Made by a program: the position numbers and the translations under genes | The notes under the pieces: generated by a model | Databases searched by the model: none | What the model was told of the DNA's origin: nothing | What the model saw: the letters and a program-made list of their open reading frames with translations, nothing else | Source of the DNA: Nitrospira lenta | GTDB taxonomy: Bacteria; Nitrospirota; Nitrospiria; Nitrospirales; Nitrospiraceae | Direction: 5' to 3' | DNA length: 64,000 bases | Assembly: GCF_900403705.1 (NCBI RefSeq) | Contig: NZ_OUNR01000016.1 | Location: 62,001-126,000, forward strand | Part shown: in pieces, positions 1 to 16,941 of the stretch | Position numbering within the stretch: position 1 is the stretch's first letter | How the letters are laid out: each line of letters opens with the position of its first letter

Positions 1-1951
1 AACGATCATAAGGCTGAGACACCGGCGGAGTATTCTTGAATAGCCGTCCAAAGAGCTCCAGCTCTTTCACGTTATAGGCGCGCGCGTCTTTCTCCCGGTC
101 CGGCGCTCTTGGCGCTTCGATGATTCCATGCGCGGCGCCGAGGAGCGCAAACAAGTGGAGCGTGTCGCCGGTCTCGCGGAACTTACAGGCCTTTCGGTAA
201 ATATCGGAGGTCAACAGATTCCACTGCCGAATATCCTTCTCGTACATCGTTTTGTAGCGGCGGTAAATGCTTTCGGGCGTGTACGTAGTCCCGTGTCGTC
301 CGAGTATGGCGGGATGGAGGATCCAGCGAATCCCCTGTTCTCCCATTTGCTCCAACAGGTTCATTTCACTGGCCTTGAGATCTTGGAAGGACACCCGCCT
401 CAATAACTCGGTCCGGTAGATCTTGATGCCTTGGATCGGACATTCCCGATCGTCGTCATACAAATGAAAGCAGATCATTCCTACTTCGGGCGGCGCTTGA
501 GACATGGCCTGTTCCATCCGGCTGACGGCATCGGGATCTAGCACCATGTCTTCGTCGACCTGAATGAAGTACGGGGTAGTACATCGTGTGATCATTGCTT
601 GAGCGGCGGCGCTGAATGGACAGACGTCTTTAATCGTGTCGGTCTTGAAGACTGCTCCGGCTTGTTCGTTCACCGATGCGGCACAGGCCTCGAAGGCTGG
701 GTCCCCGACTGTCAGCAAAAAGACTGTGGTGGATATGCGGTCTGGCTCAGGCTCAGGTGACAGAGGGGCCGTGGAAGAATTGACAGGTGTCAAGGATATG
801 ACGCCTGTCGGCTGTTCCGCGAGCGTGGGCTGGTTCCCGTAGTGAGGTTCTGTTCCGCTTTCCAGCCAGTGAAGAATGTCCTTGATCCGACGTTCCGCAG
901 TATGGTGCGCCAGGAGTGTACGTTGTCCTTGGGCACCGATTCTCTGAGCAAGCTGCGTATCTTTCACAATGCGATCTATCTGATGGGCCAGCGCACTGGG
1001 ATCATCCGGCGAGAACAGCAGGATGTCCCGGTCGTCTTCAAATAAAGCATTGATCCTCGGCCGGTCTGGTATACGCCAAGAAATCACCGGCCGACCGGCT
1101 GCCATGGCTTCATAGACACGACCGCCGAAACAACGGGTCAGGCCAGGAAGATTGACGATACCGGCCCAGTCGGCGAGCCCTGACAGCCAGTCACGAAACT
1201 CTGCCTCGCGCACGGTATGTAAGGCGCGGACGTACCGCTCAAGATCCACTGTGGTCACTAATGGAAGATGGCGCAGCCGCTCGCTTGCCACTGCTTGCAG
1301 GTCATCGAATTTCTGTTGGTTCGGCGTATATTCAGCCGGCGTCTTGGCGAACGTCATGCGGTCGCGCAGGAGCGGATGGTCGATCCACTGGGCGCGTTCT
1401 CCGTAGACATTGCCATGAAAGACGGCTCGATTGTGACGAGGGACACGCGGAGACTGTGCAATAAATCGGCTGGGAACCAACCCTGGGCACCAGAGTGCCG
1501 GCGTTGTTCCACGCGCCCTGAGCTCATCGACGTCACGTTCATCTACCAGCAAGGCGTGCGTGAGATGGTCAAGTTGGCGGTGAAAGTCGACCTGTCGGGT
1601 CCGCAGTTCAGGGGCCCAACGATAATCTTCCTCTTCATACCGCAACGATTCCATGAAGAATCCGATACGCACGGGAGCCAGCTCCGCGACCCATTCAAGT
1701 ATCCGTGCGTCAATCGACGCATGCACAAGCCATATCCAGACTTGGTCGAACCGCTGTCCGGACAGCATACGGCGGGCGTGAAACAACCATGAATCGGGCG
1801 ATGAGGCCGGCGTGTCGGGAAAAACCGGAACCGTCAGGCACGTGACTCCATTGGCGGCCAGTCCGTCGGCTACAGCAAAGCTCGCTCCGTACGTCCAGGG
1901 TCTGGCCGTTTTCCATGTCGGAAACTCAAGCTGAAGAAGCAGTGTTCTCAT
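1..1951 (-). CDS. Two-domain glycosyltransferase (GT family 1-like plus GT2-like), partial at left edge
   Basis: The frame is open from ATG at 1951 to the window edge, so the C-terminus is missing. The first ~330 residues resemble CgeB/Glyco_trans_1_2 glycosyltransferases. The donor-site region reads RCFGGRVYEAMAAGRPVISW and is followed by the typical HT..RR..IL helix. The second part begins with STTVFLLTVGDPAFEAC and contains QVDEDMVLD, a DxD-type metal/nucleotide-sugar site of a GT-A (GT2) fold. It probably transfers one or two sugars to a surface glycan or protein in the cytoplasm. It lies 260 bp downstream of the sugar-nucleotide operon, on the same strand, so it is a likely user of that operon's product. 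The acceptor and sugar cannot be told from sequence. Whether the domains act in sequence or one is regulatory is unknown. Confidence 0.8.
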   Translation of the reverse strand, partial: MRTLLLQLEFPTWKTARPWTYGASFAVADGLAANGVTCLTVPVFPDTPASSPDSWLFHARRMLSGQRFDQVWIWLVHASIDARILEWVAELAPVRIGFFMESLRYEEEDYRWAPELRTRQVDFHRQLDHLTHALLVDERDVDELRARGTTPALWCPGLVPSRFIAQSPRVPRHNRAVFHGNVYGERAQWIDHPLLRDRMTFAKTPAEYTPNQQKFDDLQAVASERLRHLPLVTTVDLERYVRALHTVREAEFRDWLSGLADWAGIVNLPGLTRCFGGRVYEAMAAGRPVISWRIPDRPRINALFEDDRDILLFSPDDPSALAHQIDRIVKDTQLAQRIGAQGQRTLLAHHTAERRIKDILHWLESGTEPHYGNQPTLAEQPTGVISLTPVNSSTAPLSPEPEPDRISTTVFLLTVGDPAFEACAASVNEQAGAVFKTDTIKDVCPFSAAAQAMITRCTTPYFIQVDEDMVLDPDAVSRMEQAMSQAPPEVGMICFHLYDDDRECPIQGIKIYRTELLRRVSFQDLKASEMNLLEQMGEQGIRWILHPAILGRHGTTYTPESIYRRYKTMYEKDIRQWNLLTSDIYRKACKFRETGDTLHLFALLGAAHGIIEAPRAPDREKDARAYNVKELELFGRLFKNTPPVSQPYDR

Positions 1952-2121
1952 CGACATCCCGTGAGGCGGTCAAAGGGCATGCGCTCGTATACCGCTATCC
2001 TGCTTACGCGGCTTAGTGGTGAGATCTTCAAGTAATGTGCCAGCTCCGGTTGAGCTGGCTATGAGGAAACTGTGGCGGATCGCACCGCCGCGGACCTATC
2101 AGGCGATGGGAAGGAATATAT

Positions 2122-2213: not shown

Positions 2214-4109
2214 TTAGGCCGCAAGAGCAATCGCCGCGGCGTTGGCCGCTCGGACACGATCAGCGATCTCACGCATACCCAGCACTGTAAATCGTGTGGT
2301 CCAGTAGGCCGACTCCTGTTGATACTGGTCCGCCAACGCGAGGCGCCGCTGACTTTCGTCAAACTCATGCAGCTTTGACGCAATCACGGCGAGAAACAGA
2401 TTGCCCATGGCATTGTCGGTCGTGTACTCATCGGTAATCTGCCGCAGCATCACCCGGATATTGCGAAGCTTGACCGGCTCATGGATGTGGAGCAGCTTTT
2501 CATAATTCATTTTATAGTCGGCGACGAACCAGAGATCATCCAACTCCGCACCCGTCGGCACATGATCGGCCGGCAGGGTGTGCAGCAGATCCACGAATTC
2601 CAGCGCCGCGTATTTCTCCGCTCGTTCACGTTGACGCAGCGTGCCGCCTCCTTTGCTCTTGGACCCGGCCGCCAGACCTTTGAAGCTGGCATCTGTGGGG
2701 GGCTGTATCAGGCCTTGCTCGATCATGCTCACGGTAATCTCTGTGCCCGGCAGCGTGGTCAATAGTTGTAACGGGTACCATCCGAACTGCAGTTCACAGC
2801 CGAGCGTGACCGTATCCCGTATCTGCGCGATGGTCTCATGCGGAAACCCGATGATCATGAAGCCTTTGACGAAGACATGCGGATACCGATCCAGAATGGC
2901 GCGGGCCTGCCGGTAGCTTTTCGTCGTGCCGGGCTTGTGAATGGATTTCAGAATCTGGTCATTACCAGACTCCAGCCCGAGATTGAAACCGATACAGCCG
3001 GATTCTGATGCCGCCTGCATGATGTCCGGCGTGATCGCCGCCGCAATCAATCCGTTGCTCGCATCCCAGGTAATGTGGAGATTCCGTCTTGTGATCTCGT
3101 TGAACAGCGCGATCGCGCGTTTCCCGTTGTAGAGCAGGTCATCATCGAGCCACATAAAATGAGTCACGCCATAAGTGGAGTACTGGTGTTCGATTTCATC
3201 GACCACACTGGAGACGGCCCGGCCTCGGACGCTGATGTCGTTGAAGTTGCGGACGGCACAGAAGGAGCACATCGCACGACATCCTCGATTACTGATGATG
3301 GTCGTGGCGGTCCGTTCGCCCCGCATGAAATTGTAGGCGCCCATGGAGCCGTAGTGCGTATAGTCTCCGATGGGTAAATCATAATATTCCGGTTGAATGT
3401 CCATCTCCTGATCGGTCGGCGTGGCTCGCTCTTTCGTGGAAACCAGTTGCTCCCCTTTCAGAATCGCCACCTGTCTGATTGCAGAGAGCGGTTGTTTCCC
3501 GTTGATCACGTCCAGCAGATCCGGAAAGCTGCGATCTCCTTCATAAAAGCTTCCGATGTCGATCTGTGGAACGGTGCGCAGGATAGACTCCACGTCATTG
3601 GAGACACAGACACCGCCGGCGATAATCGGAAGGGAGGGGTAATGCGATTTCAGAAATGCCGCGACGGCGGCGAGCGAAGGCCGTGAAATGGTGAACATGA
3701 CGCTGATGCCCACTAGATCAGGCTGAAACGCGTCGATCTTCTCGATCAACTTGTCTTTCCAGACCTGAAACCTGAAGTGAGCCGGATTCTCATGCGCCTG
3801 CTGTAAGACATGGAAGTTCAAGTCGAGCAACGCGCTTCGATACCCTCGTTGCTCCAGGTTGCGCGCAAGAATGCCGGGCCCATAGGGAGGAAAGCAGGGA
3901 TAGCGCTTGCTCAGCACCAGGTCGAGGTTGAAATCGTTCTCCGGGGATTCCGGTGGCGTCACGAGCAGAATGCGAGAGCACCCGTGCGGCAGCAAGCCGG
4001 TGAGATGCTCGTAGATCGTGTGATTGACGGGAGTCTGGTCCGTCCCGCAGGCTGCCGGCCGGTTATCGTGAATTGGCGTCGAGACGACGTTCAATGTCTT
4101 GCTCCCCAT
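2214..4109 (-). CDS. B12-binding-domain radical SAM protein (first of a pair)
   Basis: A 631-residue protein. An N-terminal cobalamin-binding-like Rossmann domain spans roughly residues 45-200 (GPGILARNLEQRGYRSALLD, then LVGISVMF and IIAGGVCVS). The radical SAM core follows, with the [4Fe-4S] cysteine motif CRAMCSFC (Cys277, Cys281, Cys284). The C-terminal ~150 residues are helical and specific to this type. The family cleaves SAM reductively and often transfers methyl groups through cobalamin, but many members have other or unknown reactions. ATG at 4109 has a good GGAGG site. It is the last gene of the sugar operon, 55 bp after a second radical SAM gene. A C-methyltransferase or other radical step on the sugar or on a lipid carrier is an inference; the substrate is not visible. 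Confidence 0.8.
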   Translation of the reverse strand: MGSKTLNVVSTPIHDNRPAACGTDQTPVNHTIYEHLTGLLPHGCSRILLVTPPESPENDFNLDLVLSKRYPCFPPYGPGILARNLEQRGYRSALLDLNFHVLQQAHENPAHFRFQVWKDKLIEKIDAFQPDLVGISVMFTISRPSLAAVAAFLKSHYPSLPIIAGGVCVSNDVESILRTVPQIDIGSFYEGDRSFPDLLDVINGKQPLSAIRQVAILKGEQLVSTKERATPTDQEMDIQPEYYDLPIGDYTHYGSMGAYNFMRGERTATTIISNRGCRAMCSFCAVRNFNDISVRGRAVSSVVDEIEHQYSTYGVTHFMWLDDDLLYNGKRAIALFNEITRRNLHITWDASNGLIAAAITPDIMQAASESGCIGFNLGLESGNDQILKSIHKPGTTKSYRQARAILDRYPHVFVKGFMIIGFPHETIAQIRDTVTLGCELQFGWYPLQLLTTLPGTEITVSMIEQGLIQPPTDASFKGLAAGSKSKGGGTLRQRERAEKYAALEFVDLLHTLPADHVPTGAELDDLWFVADYKMNYEKLLHIHEPVKLRNIRVMLRQITDEYTTDNAMGNLFLAVIASKLHEFDESQRRLALADQYQQESAYWTTRFTVLGMREIADRVRAANAAAIALAA

Positions 4110-4164: not shown

Positions 4165-5724
4165 CTATGAGCGAGCTGTTGCGGCAAGCGATTCATCAAG
4201 ATGCTGTCTCTTCAGCCGATGCTTCGTCATGTCCCGGAGATGCTCGACTGTGTCGCTGCCGAATTTGGCTTCGACGTGTGCGAGATATCGGGGGTGCTCA
4301 AAAAACGTATGAAATGCAGCGTCCCGGAAACCGAGAACGGTACTGGCCGACAGATGCTCGGTCGGCAGCGGCAGTGCCTCATAGGCATGCTGGGAATATC
4401 CGATCCAGGTTTCCGGCAGCGGCAGATGTTTGTCCAGCGCAAGTTCATAGAGCTTGGATCCCGGATAGGCCATGGCTGAATAGAAATTCGCCCAGTCCGG
4501 GCAGAGCTCGATGGCGAGATCCAGAGTTTCCTGCATCGTAGCCAGGGTGTCGTCGGGAAGGCCGAAAATAAAATTTGCGCCGATATTGATGTCCGCCGCG
4601 CGAATCTTCTCGAAAATCTCTTTGATGTCTTTCTTGCCGAAACTTTTGTCTACTCCGTCGCGGACATATGTGCTGGCCGATTCAATGCCGATTCCCAGCC
4701 AGTTGACGCCCGCTTGCTTCAACTTCTTCAACATGCTGTCTTTGACCGTATCGATCCGCGCGTAGGCCCAAATGTTCAAGTCATAGCCGCGGTCGATGAT
4801 GCGATCGCAGATGCCGAGAACCTGCCGCTCGTTCAGAATGAACATCTCATCGGCCATCTTGATGTTGCGCACGCCGTATTTGGTGACGAGCTCATCGATT
4901 TCCCGGATGACACTATCCGGGCTGCGGTAGCGGATCATCGGTTTCCCGAAGGGGGTATTGATGCAGCAGAACGAACATTTAAACGGGCAGCCGAGGCTCG
5001 TATACATCGACGCATAGGGCTTGCGGTCGCCGATATGGCCGAAACAATGCCAATTGTGGGCGCGGTATTTGTCCATCGGCAACAGATCCCACGCGACCGC
5101 GCGCAAGTCCTTATCCAGATCTTCGATCACCGGGGCTTGCGGCGTTGAACAGATGACGCCTTTCTTCCGGTACCAGAGTCCGTTGACCTTGCTGTAGTCG
5201 ACCGGGCTGTTCCACTCAGGCTGCTGCAGGAGACCAAGAAGGGTATAGGGGCCTTCTCCCTGGCAGACAAAATCGACGGCTTCCTCCCGCATGGTGCGTT
5301 CAGGCAACGCCGAGGGATGCAATCCGCCGATGAGGAGCGGCTGGTCAGGCAGACTACGCTTGATGGCTGTGCAGACTTCTCCCGCGGCGGTCATGTTCTG
5401 AGTCGACGCCGACGGTTGTTGCCCGTAGACAATGACGGCCGCCAGCCTCGGGTGCAGATGGCGAACCTGTTCCGTAACATCTTTCGGCCCGATCCCTTCC
5501 GCTTCCGCATCCAGAATCTTGACGGAATATCCACGGTCCCGAATGAATGTCGCCATCAATCCGATCCAGACAGGCGGTTCGACCGCGGCAAGATCAGACC
5601 CGAGGCTTTGATAGACTCTGGCTCGTGAGTTCGGATTGATGAGTAAGAGATCCAGCCGGCCTGGACGCGTCATGGCCGGCTCCTGTGAGCGGTGGGCCGA
5701 AGTTACTGGTCCGATCTGGATCAT
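4165..5724 (-). CDS. B12-binding-domain radical SAM protein (second of a pair)
   Basis: A 519-residue protein with an N-terminal B12-binding-like domain (IGLMATFIRDRGYSVKILDA, IGGLHPSALPE) and a radical SAM core with CPFKCSFC (Cys246, Cys250, Cys253). The C-terminal part continues the TIM barrel (NIWAYARIDTV, GIGIESAS, NFIFGLPDDT). The start at 5724 forms an ATGA overlap with the upstream thiamine-enzyme gene and has a GGGGAG site. An internal ATG at 5673 (residue 18) also has a good AGGAG site and gives the more conserved N-terminus, so either may be used. It differs from the downstream radical SAM protein in length and sequence, so the two are not simple duplicates and probably act on different steps. 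Confidence 0.8.
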   Translation of the reverse strand: MIQIGPVTSAHRSQEPAMTRPGRLDLLLINPNSRARVYQSLGSDLAAVEPPVWIGLMATFIRDRGYSVKILDAEAEGIGPKDVTEQVRHLHPRLAAVIVYGQQPSASTQNMTAAGEVCTAIKRSLPDQPLLIGGLHPSALPERTMREEAVDFVCQGEGPYTLLGLLQQPEWNSPVDYSKVNGLWYRKKGVICSTPQAPVIEDLDKDLRAVAWDLLPMDKYRAHNWHCFGHIGDRKPYASMYTSLGCPFKCSFCCINTPFGKPMIRYRSPDSVIREIDELVTKYGVRNIKMADEMFILNERQVLGICDRIIDRGYDLNIWAYARIDTVKDSMLKKLKQAGVNWLGIGIESASTYVRDGVDKSFGKKDIKEIFEKIRAADINIGANFIFGLPDDTLATMQETLDLAIELCPDWANFYSAMAYPGSKLYELALDKHLPLPETWIGYSQHAYEALPLPTEHLSASTVLGFRDAAFHTFFEHPRYLAHVEAKFGSDTVEHLRDMTKHRLKRQHLDESLAATARS

Positions 5725-6674
5725 TGCTCCCCTCCCCTTGTGACTCCCACCGGCGCGTGCTGTCTCTTTCTGACCAATTCCCGGACGACGCGGATAATTT
5801 GCTCGGGAGTAGGAGTCGGGTTGTCCAACGATTCAGCAACGCCTGCCGATCTGTCCTCTAGCCCCAGGGCGAATACCGGCGCGCCGGATTGATGCATGAG
5901 ATCATAGGCAATCGACCGTGACGGGCCGCCGATTTCAAAGTCTGAATCGATCACAAGTCCCAACTTCGTTCTGGATAAACTGTGCTGCATCTCATCCGTC
6001 ACTGTGAAGGGCTTGAGCCAGACAAGATGCTGGATGTCGCAGATGATTCCTTCCCGTCGCAATGTCTCCACCGCTTCCAGGGCATTGAGGCGGGCGGCGG
6101 AAATGGGAAACAACGTGATGTCCGCATCGGGCTCGATGCGGTTGTCGAATTCATAGTCGATGACAAAACTACGGCGATGCTCACTGACATAGAGCGGGTC
6201 GTCATGGCGCATGAACCACTGCCAGGCCTCCATCCATTCGTTGGGCGACATGGGCGCGCACACCGGCATGCCGGGCATGCGCATGATGAGACCATGCTGG
6301 GAGGCCGAGGCGACGGGACCGATGCCATTGCCTTCCATGGCAATGGCGCGGAGAAACACGGGACAGGGCACGCCCCAGACATCCTTTGATTTGGCCGCAT
6401 AGTTCACAATGGGGGCGGCGTTGTACCACATAAATCCTTGATAGCGCACCGTATAGATCGGCCGCCGGCCGACGAGCGCCGCCCCAACGGCGATACCGGC
6501 ATTGGTCACATCGGCGAGCGACAGTTCGACGATGCCTTCCGCTTCCGACATGTTTGGTACCGTGCCGCCGATCCATCCCACGGCGGACACACACTGACCT
6601 AAAAAGAGGCCGCGATTGTTCGTCAGATGGTCCCTGGTCGTCTCTCTTATGACTTCTGCAACCGTTCTGCCCAT
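5721..6674 (-). CDS. Thiamine-diphosphate enzyme, E1 beta / transketolase C-half-like subunit
   Basis: A 317-residue protein. The N-terminal pyrimidine-binding-type domain carries the expected acidic stretch (PNMSEAEGIVELSLADVTNAG). Then comes AALVGRRPIYTVRYQGFMWYNA, typical of E1 beta subunits of 2-oxoacid dehydrogenases, and a C-terminal transketolase-C domain (residues ~190-310). Its start lies inside the 3' end of the alpha-subunit gene (28-bp overlap), so the two are translated together and should form an alpha2beta2 enzyme. No lipoyl E2 or E3 gene is nearby, which argues against a pyruvate dehydrogenase complex. In sugar clusters, E1-like pairs have been proposed to add a two-carbon branch to a keto-sugar; that role here is inferred from context. 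Confidence 0.8.
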   Translation of the reverse strand: MGRTVAEVIRETTRDHLTNNRGLFLGQCVSAVGWIGGTVPNMSEAEGIVELSLADVTNAGIAVGAALVGRRPIYTVRYQGFMWYNAAPIVNYAAKSKDVWGVPCPVFLRAIAMEGNGIGPVASASQHGLIMRMPGMPVCAPMSPNEWMEAWQWFMRHDDPLYVSEHRRSFVIDYEFDNRIEPDADITLFPISAARLNALEAVETLRREGIICDIQHLVWLKPFTVTDEMQHSLSRTKLGLVIDSDFEIGGPSRSIAYDLMHQSGAPVFALGLEDRSAGVAESLDNPTPTPEQIIRVVRELVRKRQHAPVGVTRGGEQ

Positions 6675-7558
6675 AAGCCTTGTACGGTCCTTTCAGTATC
6701 GGATTCGATGGCGGTGATGTCGTTCTCCAATCCAAGGATCCTCATGGTGTCCTTGATCAAGGCAAACCGATCCCACTCCGGTGGTCCGTCGCAACCGGAC
6801 CCGGCGTGCCATAACCCGCGACAGGTTCTAATATTGATCAGTGCCGGCAACTGTTGGCTGAGTTCCTTCACGTGATGCGCAATGAGCCAGGGGTCGTCGG
6901 TGATATCCACTGCGGGAAGCCCCAACCCTTGGGCAAGACCGCAGAGGGTCCACGAACGCCGAACCGGTGTCCTGGTCAGGATCGATAGGTCATTGTCTTC
7001 GCAGACGAAGAGGACGGGTAGTTTCTTCGTGACGGCAAATCCCAAGGCCCCGTAGATGTAGTCCTCTTCCGCGGAGGCATCGCCCATGACCGTGAGCACC
7101 GGCTTCTCTGCGCCTAATGCAGCCCCCACCGCAATCGGAACTTGATCGCCCATCAGCCCGCTATGCCCGAACATGCCGATCTGCTGGGAATGTATCGAGG
7201 CCGAGCCTCCCATGCCGCGCGCGCATCCGGACGGACGACTTAAGAGTTCGTCGATGAGCTGGAGAGGATCACCGCCGAACGACAGATAGACAGAATGAGC
7301 GCGGTGCTGCGCAAAAATCAGACAGTCGGAAAAGACCGACGCGATGGCGGCAGGAATATGCTCCTGTCCGACCGACAAATAAATCGGCAGCTTCATCAAT
7401 CCTTTGTCGTAGGCCTTCTTCACTTCGAATTCGAAGAACCGGTTGAAACAGATCTGTGTGAAAAGCTTGAGGGCATACTCTTTTGAAAACCTGTTCGCCA
7501 CGTCCGGGATGAGTCCGTAGGCGGGTGTCCTTGCTGTCTGCTCCAGTTCGCACTTCAT
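6647..7558 (-). CDS. Thiamine-diphosphate enzyme, E1 alpha / transketolase N-half-like subunit
   Basis: A 303-residue protein. It carries the ThDP/Mg-binding motif beginning GDASAEEDYIYGALGFA and ending in CEDN (a GD...N signature). Upstream are the E1-alpha landmarks QEHIPAAIAS, QHRAHSVYL and GMGGSASIHS. With the beta subunit it should decarboxylate a 2-oxoacid, or cleave a ketose, and pass the activated aldehyde to an acceptor. ATG at 7558 has an AAGGA site. It sits between an aminotransferase and the beta subunit in the sugar operon. Length is shorter than E1 alpha of pyruvate dehydrogenase (about 360-400 residues) and there is no mitochondrial-type phosphorylation loop. Confidence 0.82.
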   Translation of the reverse strand: MKCELEQTARTPAYGLIPDVANRFSKEYALKLFTQICFNRFFEFEVKKAYDKGLMKLPIYLSVGQEHIPAAIASVFSDCLIFAQHRAHSVYLSFGGDPLQLIDELLSRPSGCARGMGGSASIHSQQIGMFGHSGLMGDQVPIAVGAALGAEKPVLTVMGDASAEEDYIYGALGFAVTKKLPVLFVCEDNDLSILTRTPVRRSWTLCGLAQGLGLPAVDITDDPWLIAHHVKELSQQLPALINIRTCRGLWHAGSGCDGPPEWDRFALIKDTMRILGLENDITAIESDTERTVQGLWAERLQKS

Positions 7559-7570
7559 GATGAGTCCTTC

Positions 7571-8776
7571 TTAGGCCGCGCCCGTCCATCGGTTCAGAAA
7601 CTCTGTAAGGCGTGTCAGACCGGTTTGCAGTTGTTCAACGCGTGGGGTAAAGGCAATGCGGACATACTTGTCCGATGTCGGGCCGAACGTCGCTCCCGGT
7701 GCCACCACAACATGTGTGTCCTTGAGGAGGCGATCGGCAAAGTCGTCGGAACGCAGCCCGGTAAAACCGATGTTGACCAGCAGATAAAAAGCGCCGGCAG
7801 GACGATATCCTGCATAGGAGCCAAGCGCCTGCATGACCAGATCGCGCTTCTGTTCATAGGTGGCTCGCATCGCATCCGGATAGGCGCCACCGTCGGCCAA
7901 TGCTTGGAGTGCGGCCGCTTGCGAAATGGACGGGGCACATGAAATGTAGAGCTCTTGGGCGTTCAGCAATGCGCGGCGCAACGCCGGATGCCGCGTGACG
8001 ACATAGCCCACGCGCAGGCCGGTGATGTTATAGCTTTTCGAAAAACTGTAGAGACCCACGACATGGTCGCTTCCTCCGAACGAGAGCGGCGAGACATGTC
8101 GGCGCCCATACACATACGTTTCATAGACTTCGTCCGAAACCAGCCACAGTCCCCGCTCGCGTGTGAGCTGGACTAACTGGTCCATCATGCCGGGATCGAT
8201 AACCGCGCCGGTCGGGTTGCCGGGAGAATTGATGATCAGGACTTTGGTTGCCGGAGAGATGAGCGCCGTCAGCTCATGCAGATCCGGAAGGAAGCCTGTT
8301 TCTTCCCGCAACTGATAGAACTTCACAATGCCGCCGTAATGCCGCACCGCGGCGGCGAAGTTGGGATAACCAGGATCAGGCACCAGCACCTCATCCCCCG
8401 GGTTGATCAGACATCCTACCGTCACGGCCACGCCATAGGTCGCGCCGGGGGTGACAAACACACTGTCGCTGTCTGTGTCGATGCTATTGCGCACGGTCAG
8501 TTTCGTGACAATGGCGTCACGAAGCACCCGCAGGCCCGCATTTTCCGTGTACCCCAGCGTGCGCTCTTCCGTGGCCTTGATAATGGCCTTGCGGATGAGG
8601 TCATCCGTCGCTTCTTGCGGCTGCCCGAATCCCAGCTGAATCGCATCGTCCATATCCTGGCTTCCCATGACCTGGTCCGTCAGCCGGCGTATGCCGGAAC
8701 GTGGAAGGGTTCCCAGCACATCGTTCACCCTGTGCTGGGAAGCCGGCGTCATGATGGAAGCGGTGGGTGTCATCAT
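7571..8776 (-). CDS. Class I/II PLP-dependent aminotransferase
   Basis: A 401-residue fold-type I aminotransferase of the AspC-like group. Visible landmarks are the glycine-rich PLP phosphate loop (TPGATYGVAV), the SPGNPTGAV motif, the VSDEVYETYVYG segment with the PLP-binding Asp/Tyr, and the Schiff-base lysine in YSFSKSYNITGLRVGY. The C-terminal Arg for the substrate carboxylate lies in KYVRIAFT. It transfers an amino group between an amino acid and a 2-oxo acid. The exact substrate is not readable. Its start overlaps the stop of the SDR gene (TAATG), so it is translationally coupled. In this operon it may provide the 2-oxoacid for the thiamine enzyme or aminate a product; both are inference. 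Confidence 0.85.
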   Translation of the reverse strand: MMTPTASIMTPASQHRVNDVLGTLPRSGIRRLTDQVMGSQDMDDAIQLGFGQPQEATDDLIRKAIIKATEERTLGYTENAGLRVLRDAIVTKLTVRNSIDTDSDSVFVTPGATYGVAVTVGCLINPGDEVLVPDPGYPNFAAAVRHYGGIVKFYQLREETGFLPDLHELTALISPATKVLIINSPGNPTGAVIDPGMMDQLVQLTRERGLWLVSDEVYETYVYGRRHVSPLSFGGSDHVVGLYSFSKSYNITGLRVGYVVTRHPALRRALLNAQELYISCAPSISQAAALQALADGGAYPDAMRATYEQKRDLVMQALGSYAGYRPAGAFYLLVNIGFTGLRSDDFADRLLKDTHVVVAPGATFGPTSDKYVRIAFTPRVEQLQTGLTRLTEFLNRWTGAA

Positions 8777-9606
8777 TAGCTCGCTAAGAGCACGCCGGGC
8801 TCATGCATCCACTGACTGACCGATTCATAGGAGATCTTGTTGATGGCGACATGAGAATGGATCGCGTGCAAAATAGAATCCGCCGCTTCCTGCACGGACA
8901 TGCTTTCGTCGTTGTGCGCTTTTCTCGTAGCTTTATCCCAGTGCGCGGTGAAATCCGTGTTCACGGAACCGGGATTGATGAGCGTGAACACCATGCGATA
9001 CTGGACATATTCCTTCTGCATGGCCTCGACCAGTTTCTCGACCGCACCTTTCGCCGCGGTATAGACGCTCAACTTGGGCAAGGTACGCTCACCTGAGCGG
9101 GACGACAGCATGAGCACATGGCCCCGCTTGGTATCCCGCCGGTCGATCTTGTTGAGTTTCATATACGGCAAGAGCGCGCGCATCCACATGATGGGAGCCT
9201 TGGCGTTGACATCGAAAATCGCATTGATGTCCGCCATGGTCATCTCTTCCAGCGTCCCATAGACATGGCTGCCGCCTGCCGAGCTGACGAAAATGTCGAT
9301 CTGATCTTTCCCTTTTGAATATACATCGCCGATCCAGGCTTGCGCGGATTCGATGTTGCGCACATCCATCGCGCAGGTATTGATTTCTGTATGAATACCG
9401 GTCCGCGTATTCTTTTGGAGGCGAAGCAGCGTCTCCTTCGCTTCGGCGAGCTTCCCGTTCTCATTGCGCGAGATCAACGAAATCTTCCGGCAGACGCCAT
9501 TGAGCCGCTTGGCGACCTCGAATCCGATGCCGCTTGAACCGCCTGTAATCACCACGTGTTTGCCGATGCCCCAAACCGGTTTCGCAAGTGTCAAAGCATG
9601 TTTCAT
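8776..9606 (-). CDS. Short-chain dehydrogenase/reductase (SDR)
   Basis: A 276-residue classical SDR. The NAD(P)-binding TGGSSGIGFEVAKRL is near the N-terminus, the NNAG-like motif reads SSAGGSH, and the active-site Ser (LSSRSG) and YTAAK are present. ATG at 9606 is chosen because AGGAG precedes it. A longer reading frame extends to 9843 but would run through the end of the nucleotidyltransferase gene. Sequence style is near 3-ketosphinganine-reductase-like SDRs, but an oxidoreductase acting on a keto-sugar fits the neighbours better. Substrate unknown. Confidence 0.85.
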   Translation of the reverse strand: MKHALTLAKPVWGIGKHVVITGGSSGIGFEVAKRLNGVCRKISLISRNENGKLAEAKETLLRLQKNTRTGIHTEINTCAMDVRNIESAQAWIGDVYSKGKDQIDIFVSSAGGSHVYGTLEEMTMADINAIFDVNAKAPIMWMRALLPYMKLNKIDRRDTKRGHVLMLSSRSGERTLPKLSVYTAAKGAVEKLVEAMQKEYVQYRMVFTLINPGSVNTDFTAHWDKATRKAHNDESMSVQEAADSILHAIHSHVAINKISYESVSQWMHEPGVLLAS

Positions 9607-9616
9607 AGTGTCGCTC

Positions 9617-10345
9617 CTATTGTGACAGTGAAATGGTGAGATGGTGATCGGAGGTGTCCTTATCGAGTGCTTGGAAGGCGGCCAAACGAGCCGGCGTCCC
9701 AATGTCGTAGAGTGGAGCCTCACAGGCATAGCCGTAGAGCTGGCCTTCCACCAGGCGAGGGAAGAGATCTCGCTCGAGTGAACAGGCGCCCGCGTCTGGA
9801 ATGCGATGAAGTACCGTGGTCTGAATCGCATAGATCCCGGCATTCAGAAACGGAGCCGGTTGTTTTTCGTGAAACGAGCGGATCCAACCCAGCGCATCCA
9901 TGGTGACTCCTCCGGCGTCCAGACGATCGTTCGAGGGGATCACCGCCATTGTCGCCTCGGCTTGCTTGTCTTGATGCAGCGCCAGTAAGGCCTGGAGGTC
10001 GATCCGGCACAAAGAGTCGCCGTTCAGAACAAGGGCCGTCGGTGTGGTGAGCAGGGAGCGGCAGGCCCGTAAGGCTCCGGCCGTGCCGAGCGGGGTGGTT
10101 TCATGCGAGATGATCGACTCACAATCGTGTCGTTGGGTGACATGTCGCGCGATCCAGTCGCCATGATGGCCTGTGCAAAATACAATCCGACGAAAGCCAT
10201 TGGAGAGGACATGGTCGATCACCAGGTCGAGAAAAGGCCGGCCATTGATCGGGGCCATGGGTTTTGGGCGATCCTGCAGGACCGGCGTGAGCCTGGTTCC
10301 CAAGCCTCCGCAGAGAATGACAACGTCGGGCGATGCATGCGTCAT
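9617..10345 (-). CDS. hddC: Sugar-phosphate nucleotidyltransferase, HddC-like (heptose-1-P guanylyltransferase family)
   Basis: 242 residues from ATG 10345. The nucleotidyltransferase signature is VILCGGLGTRL..(10)..RPKPMAPINGRPFL, with the metal-binding Asp in LVLNGDSLC. Later motifs are FLNAGIYAI and LYDIGTPARLAAF. The start overlaps the stop of the kinase gene (TGATG) and an AAGGA site precedes it. A GTG at 10366 is possible but lacks a ribosome site. In heptose pathways HddC joins GTP and D-glycero-alpha-D-manno-heptose 1-phosphate to GDP-heptose. The adjoining HddA-like kinase makes that reading likely. Family similarity alone would also allow glucose- or mannose-1-phosphate. Confidence 0.7.
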   Translation of the reverse strand: MTHASPDVVILCGGLGTRLTPVLQDRPKPMAPINGRPFLDLVIDHVLSNGFRRIVFCTGHHGDWIARHVTQRHDCESIISHETTPLGTAGALRACRSLLTTPTALVLNGDSLCRIDLQALLALHQDKQAEATMAVIPSNDRLDAGGVTMDALGWIRSFHEKQPAPFLNAGIYAIQTTVLHRIPDAGACSLERDLFPRLVEGQLYGYACEAPLYDIGTPARLAAFQALDKDTSDHHLTISLSQ

Positions 10346-11424
10346 CAGGCGGCGTCCTTTTTCCACGTATGACTGGCGTGCTCTTCGAGTTCTGCCGTAG
10401 TGGGTACGTCACTCCATAAGGGCGCCCGTCTGATGGGGACTTCCTGCTGAAAAAATACGATCTGACTCCCCGACCCTTCAAACTGAAACGGCACTTGCAG
10501 CAGGCCGGGTAGCGCGGCATTAATTTTGGCGTGGAGCTCTGGCTTAGCGTAGATCAACATGAAGCCTCCCCCGCCGGCTCCGAGCAGCTTGCCGCCGAGC
10601 GCACCGGCGTTGCGGGCGGCATCGTAAATCTGATCGATGAGCGGAGTGGTGATCTTGCTGGTCAGTCCTCGCTTGACCATCCAGGCTTCGTGCAGGAGCT
10701 CGCCGAACTCCGCGAGATCGTGGTCGCCGGTCAGGAGCGAAATGCCTTCCTGCACCATCTGCAACATGGCAAACAGTTCCACCCGCCGATGTTTAGTCGT
10801 GGCGATCTGTTCCTTGGCAATTTCGGACGCCGTGCGTGAGAAACCGGTGAAATACAGCAGCAGATGATCTTGAAACTGCTTGAGCCGTTCAGGCTTCATG
10901 ATCAGCGGGGTGTAGCCGATCTCTCCGCCAGGTGAGAAGGTCAGGCGGCAGAGACCGCCGTGCGCGGCCAAGACCTGATCCTGGCACCCGACGGATTCCT
11001 GTACGATATTCTGTTCAACATGAATGGCCGCATGAGCCAGTTCTGATTTCGTCGGCATCCGGTGTTGCATCGCATAGAGCGCGTGCAGCAAACCGACCGT
11101 GAATGAAGAACTGGATCCCAGACCGGTACGGGCCGGAAGATCGCCGTCGTGATGGATCTCCAGCCCTTCTGTCATGTTGAGATACTGCAGAACGCCCCGC
11201 ACGGCGGGATGCTCAATCTCGGCGTTGCTCTTGGCATGTTCGATACGCGAGTAGGCAATCCGCGTTTTATGTTCAAAGAACGGCGGCAAATGACGGCACG
11301 AGATGTAGCAATACTTGTCGATCGTGGTGGCCAGAACGGAGCCGCCGTGCTCTTTGAACCACACGGGGTAATCGGTTCCGCCTCCGAAGAAGGAGATGCG
11401 AAAAGGTGTGCGGCTGATGATCAT
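10345..11424 (-). CDS. hddA: GHMP-family sugar kinase, HddA-like (heptose 7-phosphate 1-kinase)
   Basis: A 359-residue GHMP kinase. The N-terminal ISRTPFRISFFGGGTDYP is characteristic of HddA/fucokinase-like kinases. The ATP-binding glycine/serine loop GLGSSSSFTVG lies near residue 105, and the C-terminal motif is GGKLLGAGGGGFMLIY. It would phosphorylate C1 of D-glycero-D-manno-heptose 7-phosphate. ATG at 11424 has a GAGAGG site. It is coupled to the downstream nucleotidyltransferase by a TGATG overlap. The isomerase (GmhA) and phosphatase (GmhB) that complete GDP-heptose synthesis are not in the window and must be elsewhere if the reading is right. Confidence 0.75.
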   Translation of the reverse strand: MIISRTPFRISFFGGGTDYPVWFKEHGGSVLATTIDKYCYISCRHLPPFFEHKTRIAYSRIEHAKSNAEIEHPAVRGVLQYLNMTEGLEIHHDGDLPARTGLGSSSSFTVGLLHALYAMQHRMPTKSELAHAAIHVEQNIVQESVGCQDQVLAAHGGLCRLTFSPGGEIGYTPLIMKPERLKQFQDHLLLYFTGFSRTASEIAKEQIATTKHRRVELFAMLQMVQEGISLLTGDHDLAEFGELLHEAWMVKRGLTSKITTPLIDQIYDAARNAGALGGKLLGAGGGGFMLIYAKPELHAKINAALPGLLQVPFQFEGSGSQIVFFQQEVPIRRAPLWSDVPTTAELEEHASHTWKKDAA

Positions 11425-11457: not shown

Positions 11458-12405
11458 CTAGACATTGCCGTATCCCGTTCCGGTCACAATGGTGTAGCAC
11501 TTGGACAATTCCAGAATGCCGCGCTCGAGCGACCAGTCCGGTGTGAAGCCAGTCGAGAGAATCCGTTCGTTCGACACAATGTAATCTCGTTTGTCGGGGT
11601 CTTCTCCGATCGGTGCTTCAAAAAAGACAAACTGAGGAATGTGCCGCTGGATCTCTCCGCACAATTCCACTTTCGAAAGATTGGCGTCGTCCAGCCCAAC
11701 GTTGTAGGCGCGGTTCTTCATGCTCTCGAAGTGATCCATGGAATGGAGAAAGGCCTTCACGACGTCGCGGATATGGATATAGTTCCGCTTGCAATGGCCC
11801 TCGAACACCACGACGGCTCGGTCATGCACCGCGCGCCAGACGAAGTCATTGACCAGGAGATCCATTCGCATGCGCGGAGACGCGCCAAAGACTGTGGCCA
11901 ACCGGAGTGTGATCGCGTTGCCGCGATCCAACACGACCCGTTCAGCCTTGACCTTCGTTTCGCCATACAAGCTGATGGGACGTAACGGCGAATCCTCTGT
12001 GCAGGGAACGCCCGGTTGCCCGATGCCATATCCGCTGTTCGTGACTGGGAAGATGATCTGTTGCTGTTGCGAGGCGAGCTTAGTCAGCATCTGCACGGCT
12101 TCGAAATTGATCGTGTAGGCGCCGACCCGATCACGGTTGCACAACGGGGCTCCCACCAGCGCCGCAAGCGGAATGATGACATCCGCGTCATGCAGGAGAT
12201 CCGTGACGATGCGTTCATCCCGACAATCCCCGCGCACAACCCGGAAGGTGTCAAAGGGACAGCAATCCAACAGGCTGTTTTGACGATAGAGAAAGTTGTC
12301 AAGGACGGTGACGCGATGACCCCGGTCAAGAAGCTGTTTGCACAGCACTGATCCGATATAGCCCGCTCCCCCGGTCACCAGCACGTGTGTCTGTTGTGTA
12401 GTCAT
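11458..12405 (-). CDS. NAD-dependent nucleotide-sugar epimerase/dehydratase (extended SDR)
   Basis: A 315-residue extended SDR with the GGAGYIGS nucleotide loop, the LAALVG segment and the catalytic YGETK (YxxxK). The serine/threonine-site region reads NSGYGIG. It lacks the T-D-E triad usual in 4,6-dehydratases, so an epimerase or oxidoreductase is more likely than a 4,6-dehydratase. The C-terminus shows the usual sugar-binding YNVGLDDANLSK. It lies 15 bp after the fucose-synthase-like gene in the same operon, consistent with acting on the same GDP-sugar. Confidence 0.78.
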   Translation of the reverse strand: MTTQQTHVLVTGGAGYIGSVLCKQLLDRGHRVTVLDNFLYRQNSLLDCCPFDTFRVVRGDCRDERIVTDLLHDADVIIPLAALVGAPLCNRDRVGAYTINFEAVQMLTKLASQQQQIIFPVTNSGYGIGQPGVPCTEDSPLRPISLYGETKVKAERVVLDRGNAITLRLATVFGASPRMRMDLLVNDFVWRAVHDRAVVVFEGHCKRNYIHIRDVVKAFLHSMDHFESMKNRAYNVGLDDANLSKVELCGEIQRHIPQFVFFEAPIGEDPDKRDYIVSNERILSTGFTPDWSLERGILELSKCYTIVTGTGYGNV

Positions 12406-12420
12406 TGAGATCGCGACTCC

Positions 12421-13377
12421 TTAGGACTGATGACAAAGTGGAAGGGATCCGTTCGATAATCCGTTTCCTGACAATGAGTGATCGAGAAACCAACGCACCG
12501 TCACGTCGAGACCGCTTTTCAGACTGGTGAACCGAGAATCAGGAAACCGCTCTGAAAAGGATAGGCTCCGCAAGCGCTTGACCAGCACGCCTTCCGGTTG
12601 AGTACGGTCAAATACCAGCGGACCCGTGTAGTCCATGGCTGCCGCGATGGTTTCTGCCAGGGTTTGAATAGTGATGCCGGCGTCCGGGGCAATGATGGTC
12701 GTGGTCGCATCAAGGTTACGCTGAACCGCCTCGACGGCGATCTTGGCCACATCATCGACAAAGACAAATTGGCGCACCGCACGGCCGCTTCCCCATACGA
12801 CAAACGGAGTCCCGCTTGTTTTGGCCGCCCAGCAACGGTTGATCAGCGAGCCCACCACATGTCCCCTCTCGGGATCAAAGGAATCCTGTGGGCCATAGAG
12901 CGTGACCGGCGTCAGCGTGGTCCAGTTCCAGCCCTCTTCTTTCGCCACGAGTCGAGTGTGAAGGTCCAGCATCCGCTTGGCATAGCCGTATCCTGCATTG
13001 CCGTCATACGGAAGTGCGGCCTGGAGATCGTCTTCGGTCGTCGCCCGATCAGGATAGAGGGGAAACGCACAGCTTGAGAGAAGCGAGACCAGCTTGTGGA
13101 TTCCAAGTGAATGAGCCGCGGAGAGCACCGCCGTATTGATGAGCGCGTTCTCCTCAAAGAAGCGGCTATTGTTCGCCGCATTGGCCTTCACGCCCCCGAC
13201 CACACCCGCCAGATGAAGGATTTGTCCTGGCCGAATATCTTTCAGCAGCCGTTGCGCCACGCTACGGTCGCGAAGGTCTCCGTCTGTACGGGATAGGAAG
13301 ATCGCGTCAGGCCGAAGTTTCCGGATCGCCGATCCCAGCAGTCCGGTTCCACCGGTCACCAGTAGCGGACCTGTCAT
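12421..13377 (-). CDS. GDP-L-fucose-synthase-like epimerase/reductase (extended SDR)
   Basis: A 318-residue protein with TGGTGLLGSAIRK at the N-terminus. The catalytic features of GDP-fucose synthase (GMER) are present: SSCAFPLYP (active-site Ser-Cys), YGYAK (YxxxK) and LYGPQDSF followed by GHVVGSLI, whose His matches the second acid/base residue. Such enzymes epimerise C3/C5 and reduce the 4-keto group of a GDP-4-keto-6-deoxy sugar. Homologues also act on GDP-6-deoxyheptoses. The start overlaps the stop of the 3-dehydratase gene (ATGA). The pairing suggests a GDP-linked 4-keto-6-deoxy intermediate. The 4,6-dehydratase itself is not seen here. Confidence 0.8.
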   Translation of the reverse strand: MTGPLLVTGGTGLLGSAIRKLRPDAIFLSRTDGDLRDRSVAQRLLKDIRPGQILHLAGVVGGVKANAANNSRFFEENALINTAVLSAAHSLGIHKLVSLLSSCAFPLYPDRATTEDDLQAALPYDGNAGYGYAKRMLDLHTRLVAKEEGWNWTTLTPVTLYGPQDSFDPERGHVVGSLINRCWAAKTSGTPFVVWGSGRAVRQFVFVDDVAKIAVEAVQRNLDATTTIIAPDAGITIQTLAETIAAAMDYTGPLVFDRTQPEGVLVKRLRSLSFSERFPDSRFTSLKSGLDVTVRWFLDHSLSGNGLSNGSLPLCHQS

Positions 13378-14570
13378 GCGGCCTCCAGGACGACCTGCGA
13401 AATCGCGGCGACATCGTCCGATGTCAGCGCTGCGTGATTGGGCAGAAAAAATCCGCAGTGGTGAATGCGATCGGCCACCGGGAAACTCGTGCTGCCATAC
13501 CGGTTTGCCCAGAATGGATGGAGCCCCAGGTTGCCGGCAGAGAAAATGCGGGTTTCAATCCCACGCGCCACGAGTGCCTGAACGATCCGCTGGCGCTGTT
13601 GGCGCGATTCCGCTAACAAGCCGACCGAAATGCTGGCAACTTGGCTGTTCTTCGGGGGACGTTGAACATAGAAGCTGGAACTCAGGCGATCCAGATACCG
13701 TGCATGATTTGCCCGGCGCTGTTCCGTCATCCAATCCAGCTTCTCCACTTGCCCAATTCCAATGAAGGCATTCAGATCGGTCGATCGGAGATTAAAGCCC
13801 GGTTCGTAGAAGACGAAGGGAGAGTGGAAGTCATCGATCTGGTGTTGAGTGACCAGTGCACGATGGGTCGCGGTATCCAGATCCTTGCTCCAGCCGTGGC
13901 TCCGGAGCATCAGCAGGAGATCCGCGAGGCCTTTGTCGTTCGTGGAGACCATGCCGCCTTCGATCGTCGACATCTGATGGCCGAAATAGAAGGAGAAGCT
14001 GGCCATATCTCCGAATGAGCCGACTTTGCGCCCTTCATAGCTCGCCCCGATTGCGGCGCACGCGTCTTCCAATAAGATGAATCCATAGCGCTCTTTCAGG
14101 GCCATCATCTCCCGCATCTTATGCGGGACGCCCAAGACCTGAACGAGCATGACCGTCTGAGGTTGATGCTGCTTCACGAGCGCTTCGAGGTGATTCAGAT
14201 CCAGCCCGAATGTATCCGGGTCGGCTTCACACATGATGGGTTCAAAGCCGAATTGAATGGCCGGCGCGATCGACGTCACCCAGCCCACACTCGGCACAAT
14301 GACTTTCTTATTCTTCAGGCGTCCGGACGCCTGAAGCGCGTAATACATCAGCAAGTTGGCCGACGATCCGGAATTGCAAAAGACGGAGTGGGAAGCTCCC
14401 AGCCAGTGTGACCAGCGCGATTCGAAATCGACGGTGATCGGGCCTTTCGTCAAGCGAGGATAGGTCTGCAACCATTCCACCAATCGATTGATGTCCTGGC
14501 GATCGATCGTGTCATAGGCAAGACACCATCGCGGGTTCATTGTCTGCTGTACTGAATCACGGCCTTCCAT
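13374..14570 (-). CDS. DegT/DnrJ-fold PLP/PMP sugar 3-dehydratase (ColD/RfbH-like; His replaces the Schiff-base Lys)
   Basis: A 398-residue DegT/DnrJ/EryC1/StrS-fold enzyme. Landmarks are FCNSGSSANLLM (phosphate loop), ILLEDACAAIGA (PLP-binding Asp) and SFYFGHQMSTIEGGM. In sugar aminotransferases the sixth residue of that last motif is the catalytic Lys; here it is His. The same replacement is the hallmark of GDP-4-keto-6-deoxymannose 3-dehydratase (ColD) and of the CDP-sugar enzyme E1/RfbH, which remove the C3 hydroxyl using pyridoxamine phosphate rather than transaminating a sugar. No Cys4-type [2Fe-2S] extension as in RfbH is evident, so it is closer to ColD. ATG at 14570 has an AAGGAG site. 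It is the first gene of the operon. Confidence 0.8.
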   Translation of the reverse strand: MEGRDSVQQTMNPRWCLAYDTIDRQDINRLVEWLQTYPRLTKGPITVDFESRWSHWLGASHSVFCNSGSSANLLMYYALQASGRLKNKKVIVPSVGWVTSIAPAIQFGFEPIMCEADPDTFGLDLNHLEALVKQHQPQTVMLVQVLGVPHKMREMMALKERYGFILLEDACAAIGASYEGRKVGSFGDMASFSFYFGHQMSTIEGGMVSTNDKGLADLLLMLRSHGWSKDLDTATHRALVTQHQIDDFHSPFVFYEPGFNLRSTDLNAFIGIGQVEKLDWMTEQRRANHARYLDRLSSSFYVQRPPKNSQVASISVGLLAESRQQRQRIVQALVARGIETRIFSAGNLGLHPFWANRYGSTSFPVADRIHHCGFFLPNHAALTSDDVAAISQVVLEAA

Positions 14571-14776: not shown

Positions 14777-15475
14777 CTATTGGGGTGGAAACGAATCGGT
14801 TGCTTTCTGCGCGGTCCACTGTTCGATGGCCTGATGAACGGAGCCGCCCCATCCGCGGTATTCGATATATTCCATGTCCTGAAAACGAAAGGCGATGCCG
14901 AGTATGCAGCCGGCCTCCGTGGCCTCGGAACTTTTGACAAGACCCGTCAAATTTGTGACGTGACCGAGCCCGGCCAGTTCGAATTCCAGCCGTAGGGAGG
15001 TTCCTGCCCGAAGCCAGGCCGGCGCCTGCGGAACGATCACGCTACAGCCGCCGATGCTCAGATTTTGAAGCAGCCCGCCGACGATCGCCGTGACGCTGTC
15101 CATCCGTGCAAGCACAATGGGCTCACAGGAAGATACGCGAGCATGTTTGCGCAAGTGCATTTCTTCCACGGTTTGGGGAAATGCAAGAAAGAGGAGCGGC
15201 ACCGGCGCACTCAACCTGTCGCGAATTTCAGTTCGATACCCGACCAGCTTTCCGTCATGGAGATAGCTGACCGTACAGGGCGTTCCTTGCGGAATCTCCG
15301 TCCCATGGCCAGCTTGCAACGGCCATTCACAGACCAGCCAGGCATGGTCTTTCCACCCCAGAAGCGTTGATCCATACATCCCCTTCTGCCCGTTGAGGGT
15401 GAAGGAGAGTTTGAGGGAAAGGCCGACCGTGAGGAAGGATGCCGGCGTCGCCTGTAGTGTGGTCACTGCATTCAT
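14777..15475 (-). CDS. PilZ-domain c-di-GMP effector, YcgR-like
   Basis: A 232-residue protein. The N-terminal ~110 residues resemble the YcgR N-terminal domain (LVGYRTEIRD, LLFLAFPQTVEE). The PilZ domain (~112-215) starts with RKHARVSS and contains LSIGGCSVIV, the two c-di-GMP-contacting motifs (RxxxR; D/N-x-S-x-x-G, here with Leu in place of D/N). In enterobacteria YcgR binds c-di-GMP and slows the flagellar motor. Its start overlaps the stop of the HD-GYP gene by 4 bp (ATGA), pairing an effector with an enzyme that degrades the same messenger. Binding affinity cannot be judged. Confidence 0.82.
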   Translation of the reverse strand: MNAVTTLQATPASFLTVGLSLKLSFTLNGQKGMYGSTLLGWKDHAWLVCEWPLQAGHGTEIPQGTPCTVSYLHDGKLVGYRTEIRDRLSAPVPLLFLAFPQTVEEMHLRKHARVSSCEPIVLARMDSVTAIVGGLLQNLSIGGCSVIVPQAPAWLRAGTSLRLEFELAGLGHVTNLTGLVKSSEATEAGCILGIAFRFQDMEYIEYRGWGGSVHQAIEQWTAQKATDSFPPQ

Positions 15476-16695: not shown

Positions 16696-16749
16696 GAGTA
16701 ACAGCTACCGATATCCGGTCACAGTGCATGCAGATTCATGCGTGTATCT

Positions 16750-16776
16750 GTATCGGAAAGAACACAGAAAGTCTTG
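16750..16776 (-). promoter_or_regulatory. Possible sigma-28 promoter of the HD-GYP/PilZ operon
   Basis: Minus-strand CAAGACTT-N11-TCCGATAC, 55 bp before ATG 16695. The -10 half has six of eight consensus bases; the -35 half is poor. Listed because a better sigma-28 site faces the other way in the same intergenic region. Confidence 0.3.
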
Positions 16777-16846
16777 AGAGGGATTGCCGGGCATCGCGCA
16801 GGGAACTCTAAACCGTCTTCGCCAGGAATGACGCATCTCTAGGCCG

Positions 16847-16874
16847 TAAAGATCGTTCCTCTGGGAACCGATAG
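16847..16874 (+). promoter_or_regulatory. Sigma-28 (FliA) promoter of the HD-GYP/hybrid-kinase operon
   Basis: TAAA-N16-ACCGATAG, 68 bp before ATG 16942. It shares the ACCGATA core and the spacing with the site before flgM. This predicts that this signalling operon is switched on with late flagellar genes. Confidence 0.6.
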
Positions 16875-16941
16875 GACATGTGGGATCCTCTCGAAGCGGA
16901 CATGCGGGCTTTGAGCGTGGCAACTGGGGAGATAGGAATTC

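Follow-up and report, generated by a model that had tools for sequence, protein, structure and literature searches.

The 64,000-nucleotide stretch of Nitrospira lenta DNA analysed here (contig NZ_OUNR01000016.1, positions 62,001 to 126,000; the window) encodes an overlapping pair of E1-alpha-like and E1-beta-like subunits within an operon of nucleotide-sugar genes. We propose that this pair is a thiamine diphosphate (ThDP) carboligase making a carbon-branched (3-)deoxysugar; we infer both the substrates and the carboligation, and put the probability of this reading at roughly 0.55. In the proposed pathway, the two subunits would act without lipoyl E2/E3 partners. A ColD-type dehydratase would supply a nucleotide-linked 3-deoxy-4-keto sugar as acceptor, the pair would decarboxylate a 2-oxo acid, and the resulting acyl carbanion would join the keto carbon (C4) of that acceptor. 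Reductases, an epimerase and two B12-binding radical SAM enzymes would then complete the branched sugar, which downstream glycosyltransferases would most likely put on flagellin.

Pfam analysis supported the assignment of both subunits, as the E1_dh match of E1-alpha and the Transket_pyr and Transketolase_C matches of E1-beta all exceed their cut-offs, and a further match to TPP_enzyme_C is partial and weak. Scores against the equivalog models for pyruvate dehydrogenase (PDH) E1 were 105 bits for E1-alpha and 65 bits for E1-beta, far under the respective cut-offs of 394 and 321. The two reading frames share 28 bp (6647-6674), a purine-rich sequence resembling a ribosome site lies 5' of both start codons, and the end of the E1-beta gene overlaps the gene for the first radical SAM enzyme (rSAM1) by 4 bp (5721-5724). 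The Nitrospira operon comprises 11 genes in the same direction (Table 1), with seven sugar and aminotransferase genes upstream of the E1 pair and two B12-binding radical SAM genes downstream.

No E2 acyltransferase (PF00198) was found anywhere in the 99.98%-complete genome, using a search that did find E2 in 10 of 14 control genomes. PF00198 was also absent from three other Nitrospirota genomes of clade 1, the pair's own clade in the tree described below (G088, G280 and G192). No E2 was seen near the pair in the neighbourhoods examined at any clade-1 locus, or at 20 extended Nitrospirota loci, 16 of which carry E1 pairs of a second group. Apart from E1-beta, the genome encodes just two Transket_pyr proteins, both single-chain (frames of 684 and 640 aa) and most likely transketolase and DXS; two POR_N proteins indicate that the pyruvate and 2-oxoglutarate route likely runs through 2-oxoacid:ferredoxin oxidoreductases. 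The lack of E2 in this nearly complete genome means that the E1 pair does not belong to a dehydrogenase complex.

Scanning genome contigs with the window protein, we identified 14 relatives (43-89% identity) in Nitrospira, Omnitrophota, Brocadia, Colwellia, a deltaproteobacterium, Magnetovibrio, a deep-branching Nitrospiraceae bin, Verrucomicrobia, Geomonas, Elusimicrobia and further bins. The alpha/beta gene order is kept in every relative found, and the pairing is therefore not due to chance. Within Nitrospirota the distribution is patchy, since the pair occurs, at about 50% identity or above, in only 5 of 295 genomes, the window's own included. All other E1 pairs gathered have at most 34% identity, and the nearest of them are mostly found in sugar clusters too. 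An IQ-TREE phylogeny of concatenated E1-alpha and E1-beta recovered clade 1 (19 rows from about eight phyla) with support of 100/100 and a stem length of 3.26 changes per site. The wider group, consisting of clade 1 and the mostly sugar-cluster pairs, was split from complex E1s at 99/100, with three rows only on the complex side. Given these three rows and the long stem, we are unsure of the exact sister group of clade 1.

An earlier note on this DNA had described an E1 pair overlapping by 28 bp among nucleotide-sugar genes, with no lipoyl partner nearby, and had suggested a sugar-modifying ThDP enzyme that is not a dehydrogenase. The reading frames, domains and 11-gene operon confirm the first description, and the lack of E2 holds both genome-wide and around the clade-1 loci. 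The suggested role is well supported by the same lack of E2, the separate clade, the sugar operon and the ColD-type 3-dehydratase. What the note had said would refute its idea was not seen: lacking an E2, the genome encodes no such complex at another site, and in the tree the pair stays apart from dehydrogenase-complex E1s, at the 99/100 split from its three complex rows.

Active-site residues were counted in 51 pairs (19 of clade 1 and 32 others). Profile alignment to human PDH E1-beta (PDHB) and 1ik6 places Asp55 of E1-beta at the catalytic, ThDP-activating glutamate, and this position is Asp in 19/19 clade-1 pairs and Glu in 32/32 others. Tyr60 of E1-alpha, placed on the active-site His by profile alignment, is Tyr in all 19 and His in all 32. 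The active-site His position of E1-beta is more variable within clade 1, being Ala or Ser in ten rows of the window lineage (Ala122 in the window protein) and His in the remaining nine, as in all 32 others; E1-beta also has a His127 that is invariant within clade 1 and new there. None of the canonical E1 catalytic residues (beta Glu, beta His, alpha His) is thus kept in the window pair. The enzyme nevertheless looks active from its sequence, because E1-alpha retains the GDA...N motif for ThDP (G159-D160...N189, the metal and diphosphate residues) as well as loop His251. To our knowledge, no family with a uniform Asp at the ThDP glutamate has been described. In the ThDP decarboxylase superfamily, which is a different superfamily from that of the E1 pair, 94% of sequences have the catalytic glutamate, and the valine of glyoxylate carboligases is the recorded exception (PMC3534367). 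Confident AlphaFold2 models of E1-alpha (pLDDT 86) and E1-beta (pLDDT 85) had human PDH E1-alpha (TM 0.80) and 1w85_B (TM 0.83) as their best PDB matches, and the combined fold and profile ranking placed E1 of PDH and of branched-chain 2-oxo acid dehydrogenase (BCKDH) first, with split transketolase and DXS lower.

The acceptor was predicted from the first gene of the operon, which encodes a DegT-fold protein. This protein is alike to ColD, a GDP-4-keto-6-deoxymannose 3-dehydratase, in its best PDB matches (2gms/3b8x/3gr9, E 3e-47) and in its catalytic His column: the His of its FSFYFGHQMST motif, which replaces the lysine that binds pyridoxal phosphate (PLP), falls on the ColD residue changed in the 3b8x chain. 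It differs in scoring under the cut-off for NCBIfam RfbH (202 bits against 423), and the likeness to ColD is one of sequence. The His motif rules out an aminotransferase role for this protein. Of 14 independent clade-1 loci, nine have a His-type DegT protein, orthologous or related, nearby. Among the ten DegT proteins of three genomes, only the three at E1 loci have His and the other seven have Lys, a coincidence with a chance of 1 in 120. ColD-type enzymes take the 3-hydroxyl off a 4-keto-6-deoxy sugar, and a GDP-mannose 4,6-dehydratase (Gmd), scoring above its cut-off, is encoded elsewhere in the N. lenta genome. A nucleotide-linked 3-deoxy-4-keto sugar is therefore the predicted acceptor, and its CDP-linked counterpart, CDP-4-keto-3,6-dideoxyglucose, is the acceptor of YerE and ErwE (PMC12247030).

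Neighbouring enzymes also provide a suggestive clue to the donor. Pyruvate is the default, but a longer 2-oxo acid is plausible because the pairs of some relatives adjoin sugar-acid dehydratases or an isopropylmalate-synthase-like enzyme. A galactarate/altronate dehydratase-like protein occurs at five loci (L011, L013, L017, L019 and L058) whose E1 pairs form one subclade, and the Colwellia locus (L012) encodes an enolase-superfamily protein similar to arabinonate/gluconate dehydratases. In two distant phyla, an isopropylmalate-synthase-like protein is encoded directly before E1-alpha (Omnitrophota L010, 8845-10011, and L015, 8633-9907). Sugar-acid dehydratases yield 2-keto-3-deoxy acids, which are 4-hydroxy-2-oxo acids. 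This is the class of donor that ErwE prefers (PMC12247030). The two isopropylmalate-synthase-like proteins lack the usual C-terminal regulatory part, and the five dehydratase loci also encode a DJ-1/PfpI-type protein and a cupin-like protein with a KPWGYE motif. On this basis we tentatively raise a broader possibility, which is less likely than the carboligase assignment itself: a new ThDP carboligase subfamily on the E1 heterodimer scaffold, spread over about eight phyla and with Asp in place of the near-universal Glu, may add long carbon branches to 3-deoxy-4-keto sugars. The neighbouring enzymes would make the long 2-oxo acids, such as 2-keto-3-deoxy sugar acids, from which the branches come, giving caryophyllose-like products on flagella or other surfaces.

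The operon product is probably a flagellin glycan in Nitrospira, because the operon runs into genes for glycosyltransferases, flagellin and FliD. The protein that crosses the left edge of the window has 2182 aa in the extended locus (L085), reads in the direction of the sugar operon and features several GT1/GT4 and GT2 glycosyltransferase domains, a methyltransferase domain and tetratricopeptide (TPR) repeats; it is followed by another glycosyltransferase-like protein, two GT9 proteins, flagellin and FliD. About 17 kb lie between this flagellin gene and the pair, and on the pair's other side, ~16 kb off, is the gene for a second Flagellin_N-domain protein (a FlgK-like frame of 590 aa). The flagellin-linked arrangement was seen again in G088, G280 and L007, flagellin lies ~18 kb from the pair on the same contig in L008, and flagellar genes are near the pair in G125, Brocadia and Colwellia. 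A literature search on E1 in flagellin glycosylation or in Nitrospira returned nothing relevant. Flagellin as the universal target of the clade is ruled out by six clade-1 genomes that lack it, where the pair would serve other surface glycans. The sugar role in the earlier note's proposal of chain extension of a surface sugar is supported, with the generic surface sugar narrowed to a probable flagellin glycan. Its thiamine-dependent carbon addition is retained as our inference, whereas simple extension gives way to a branch at the keto carbon as the likelier outcome.

Several observations weigh against a carboligase that builds a branched flagellar sugar. The Glu-to-Asp change could mean chemistry other than classical carboligation. 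At five of the 14 independent loci, some of them on short contigs, the stretch examined contains no His-type DegT, and the six flagellin-less genomes show that flagellin is not the general target. Finally, the sole donor-side candidate in the window is the class-I aminotransferase adjoining E1-alpha.

Among the other enzymes considered, a split transketolase or DXS-like enzyme, building a linear skeleton such as a heptulose- or deoxyketose-like precursor before activation by the GHMP kinase and nucleotidyltransferase instead of branching a nucleotide sugar already complete, is unlikely, though the least so. The operon does encode an HddA-like kinase and an HddC-like transferase, the second E1 group accompanies SIS (GmhA-like) and PfkB/cytidylyltransferase (HldE-like) genes, and split transketolase is itself a structural match, albeit a weaker one. 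However, the nearest fold and profile are those of PDH/BCKDH E1 rather than transketolase or DXS, the ColD-type 3-dehydratase implies a keto-sugar acceptor formed late, and most clade-1 loci yielded no SIS gene. The change from Glu to Asp and the loss of the E1-beta His in the window lineage suggest altered proton handling, which would suit an enzyme acting simply as a 2-oxo acid decarboxylase or C-C lyase, one that provides an aldehyde or strips off a carboxyl group as the sugar is built, without carboligation. The GarD/UxaA-like or enolase-type dehydratases that adjoin some pairs, as makers of 2-keto-3-deoxy acids, also speak for such an enzyme, but no obvious consumer of an aldehyde product was seen and the E1-type ThDP enzymes described from sugar clusters are carboligases (PMC12247030), making this role improbable. 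We consider it slightly more improbable still that the pair is an oxidative enzyme with a non-lipoyl acceptor, yielding an activated acyl group for N- or O-acylation of a sugar. The name acetoin:DCPIP oxidoreductase implies an artificial acceptor and the operon's aminotransferase and DegT genes might hint at an amino sugar in need of acylation, yet Pfam identified no acyltransferase in the operon and the His-type DegT protein is, by motif, not an aminotransferase. An ordinary 2-oxo acid dehydrogenase E1 with E2/E3 encoded elsewhere, which the PDH E1 fold and best database matches would favour, is highly improbable and largely refuted by the missing E2, in addition to the separate clade, the altered catalytic residues and a sugar-gene neighbourhood kept across about eight phyla.

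Among the remaining genes of the operon, the NAD-dependent epimerase is a recurrent partner of the clade (51-72% identity at most loci in other phyla), as is the GHMP kinase (49-63% identity across phyla), and both radical SAM enzymes recur at clade-1 loci. The short-chain dehydrogenase/reductase (SDR) is a candidate reductase of the branch or the sugar, and the aminotransferase is a possible source of the 2-oxo acid or of an amino group. The top model for the aminotransferase was GntC, a PLP cyclodehydratase of the guanitoxin pathway (292 bits, cut-off 415), so its chemistry may be other than plain transamination.

Table 1. Genes of the sugar operon and the adjoining protein at the left edge of the window
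Feature	Position	Strand	Length	Basis of assignment
ColD-type DegT-fold PLP/pyridoxamine phosphate (PMP) sugar 3-dehydratase, first operon gene	13374..14570	-		PDB best matches and His motif
GDP-fucose-synthase-like short-chain epimerase/reductase	12421..13377	-		NCBIfam GDPFucSynFcl 174 bits, under cut-off 500
NAD-dependent sugar epimerase-family protein	11458..12405	-		Pfam Epimerase
GHMP sugar kinase, HddA-like	10345..11424	-		Pfam and NCBIfam
Sugar-1-phosphate nucleotidyltransferase, guanylyltransferase-like	9617..10366	-		NCBIfam man1P_GTase 147 bits, HddC 107 bits, both under cut-off
SDR	8776..9606	-		Pfam adh_short; start set at internal ATG 9606, with ribosome site
Fold-type-I aminotransferase	7571..8776	-		Pfam Aminotran_1_2 3.4e-59
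E1-alpha-like subunit	6647..7558	-	303 aa	Pfam E1_dh 8.6e-16
E1-beta-like subunit	5721..6674	-	317 aa	Pfam Transket_pyr 1.9e-12 and Transketolase_C
B12-binding radical SAM enzyme rSAM1	4165..5724	-		Pfam B12-binding and Radical_SAM; CxxxCxxC motif
B12-binding radical SAM enzyme rSAM2	2214..4109	-		Pfam; CxxxCxxC motif
Multi-domain glycosyltransferase/methyltransferase/TPR protein, N-terminal part	1..1957	-		Runs left of window (L085 11409-17957); L085 ORFs and Pfam

Promoter and terminator scans scored the real sequence no better than shuffled sequences. Window positions 14777-18207 contain reading frames that recur directly upstream of the operon in Nitrospira relatives and G125; by motif, these look like PilZ and HD-GYP proteins of cyclic di-GMP (c-di-GMP) signalling, which suggests a link to motility or c-di-GMP. 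The second, larger Nitrospirota E1 group (L061-L076) is found mostly in sugar clusters without E2, where its neighbours are SIS (GmhA-like), PfkB/cytidylyltransferase (HldE-like) and radical SAM/SPASM proteins. Both E1 groups occur within one locus in L015 (4686-6694) and L016 (438-2437), and L071 encodes an IlvB-like single-chain ThDP enzyme (TPP_enzyme_N/M/C, 11909-13678) two genes after a second-group E1 pair. A phage scan gave acetoin-type or weak matches only, and neither of two Streptomyces plasmid E1 loci, L020 without sugar context and L025 with natural-product-like neighbours, was identifiable as encoding a branching enzyme.

A 2025 review places E1-type branching enzymes mainly in antibiotic pathways, where they are specialised for C2 branches, and assigns the branching of surface glycans to YerE-like enzymes (PMC12247030). 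If our proposal is true, E1-type branching would extend to the motility and envelope glycans of Nitrospira, Brocadia, Colwellia, Geomonas and others, clade 1 would be a natural test of a conserved ThDP glutamate turned aspartate, and these loci would provide concrete sets of genes through which carbon-branched flagellar sugars could be tested for in nitrifiers not yet in culture. Compared with PDH/BCKDH E1 (1w85, human PDH), the window pair is alike in fold, ThDP motif and loop His, but has no E2/E3, shorter chains, changes at the equivalents of the PDHB Glu and His and the PDHA His, and a clade of its own. The YerE-like enzymes (YerE, ErwE and MMAR_2332) resemble the proposed system in serving Gram-negative surface glycans and using a 4-keto-3,6-dideoxy sugar acceptor, and ErwE uses hydroxylated 2-oxo acids (PMC12247030). 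They are, however, single-chain TPP_enzyme_N/M/C proteins of the decarboxylase superfamily (YerE being a TPP flavoprotein), whereas the window pair consists of two E1-type chains.

The closest parallels are AviB1/AviB2, Pau11/Pau12 and KbDH-alpha/beta (alpha-KADH2), which are E1 pairs without E2/E3 in antibiotic deoxysugar clusters and are predicted to add an acyl group to a keto sugar (PMC4425429, PMC12247030); of these, KbDH-alpha/beta joins pyruvate to ketones and has no dehydrogenase role (PMC12247030). Compared by description, the window pair is alike in being an E1-alpha/E1-beta pair without E2/E3 inside a deoxysugar cluster, and its cluster appears alike in having a route to a keto-sugar acceptor (ColD-type DegT, with Gmd elsewhere). 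In contrast to the known alpha-KADH2 examples, which come from antibiotic producers and use C2 units from pyruvate, clade 1 is found at motility and envelope-glycan loci of Gram-negative phyla. It is further set apart by Asp for the catalytic Glu and Tyr for the active-site His, and some of its loci hint at longer donors.

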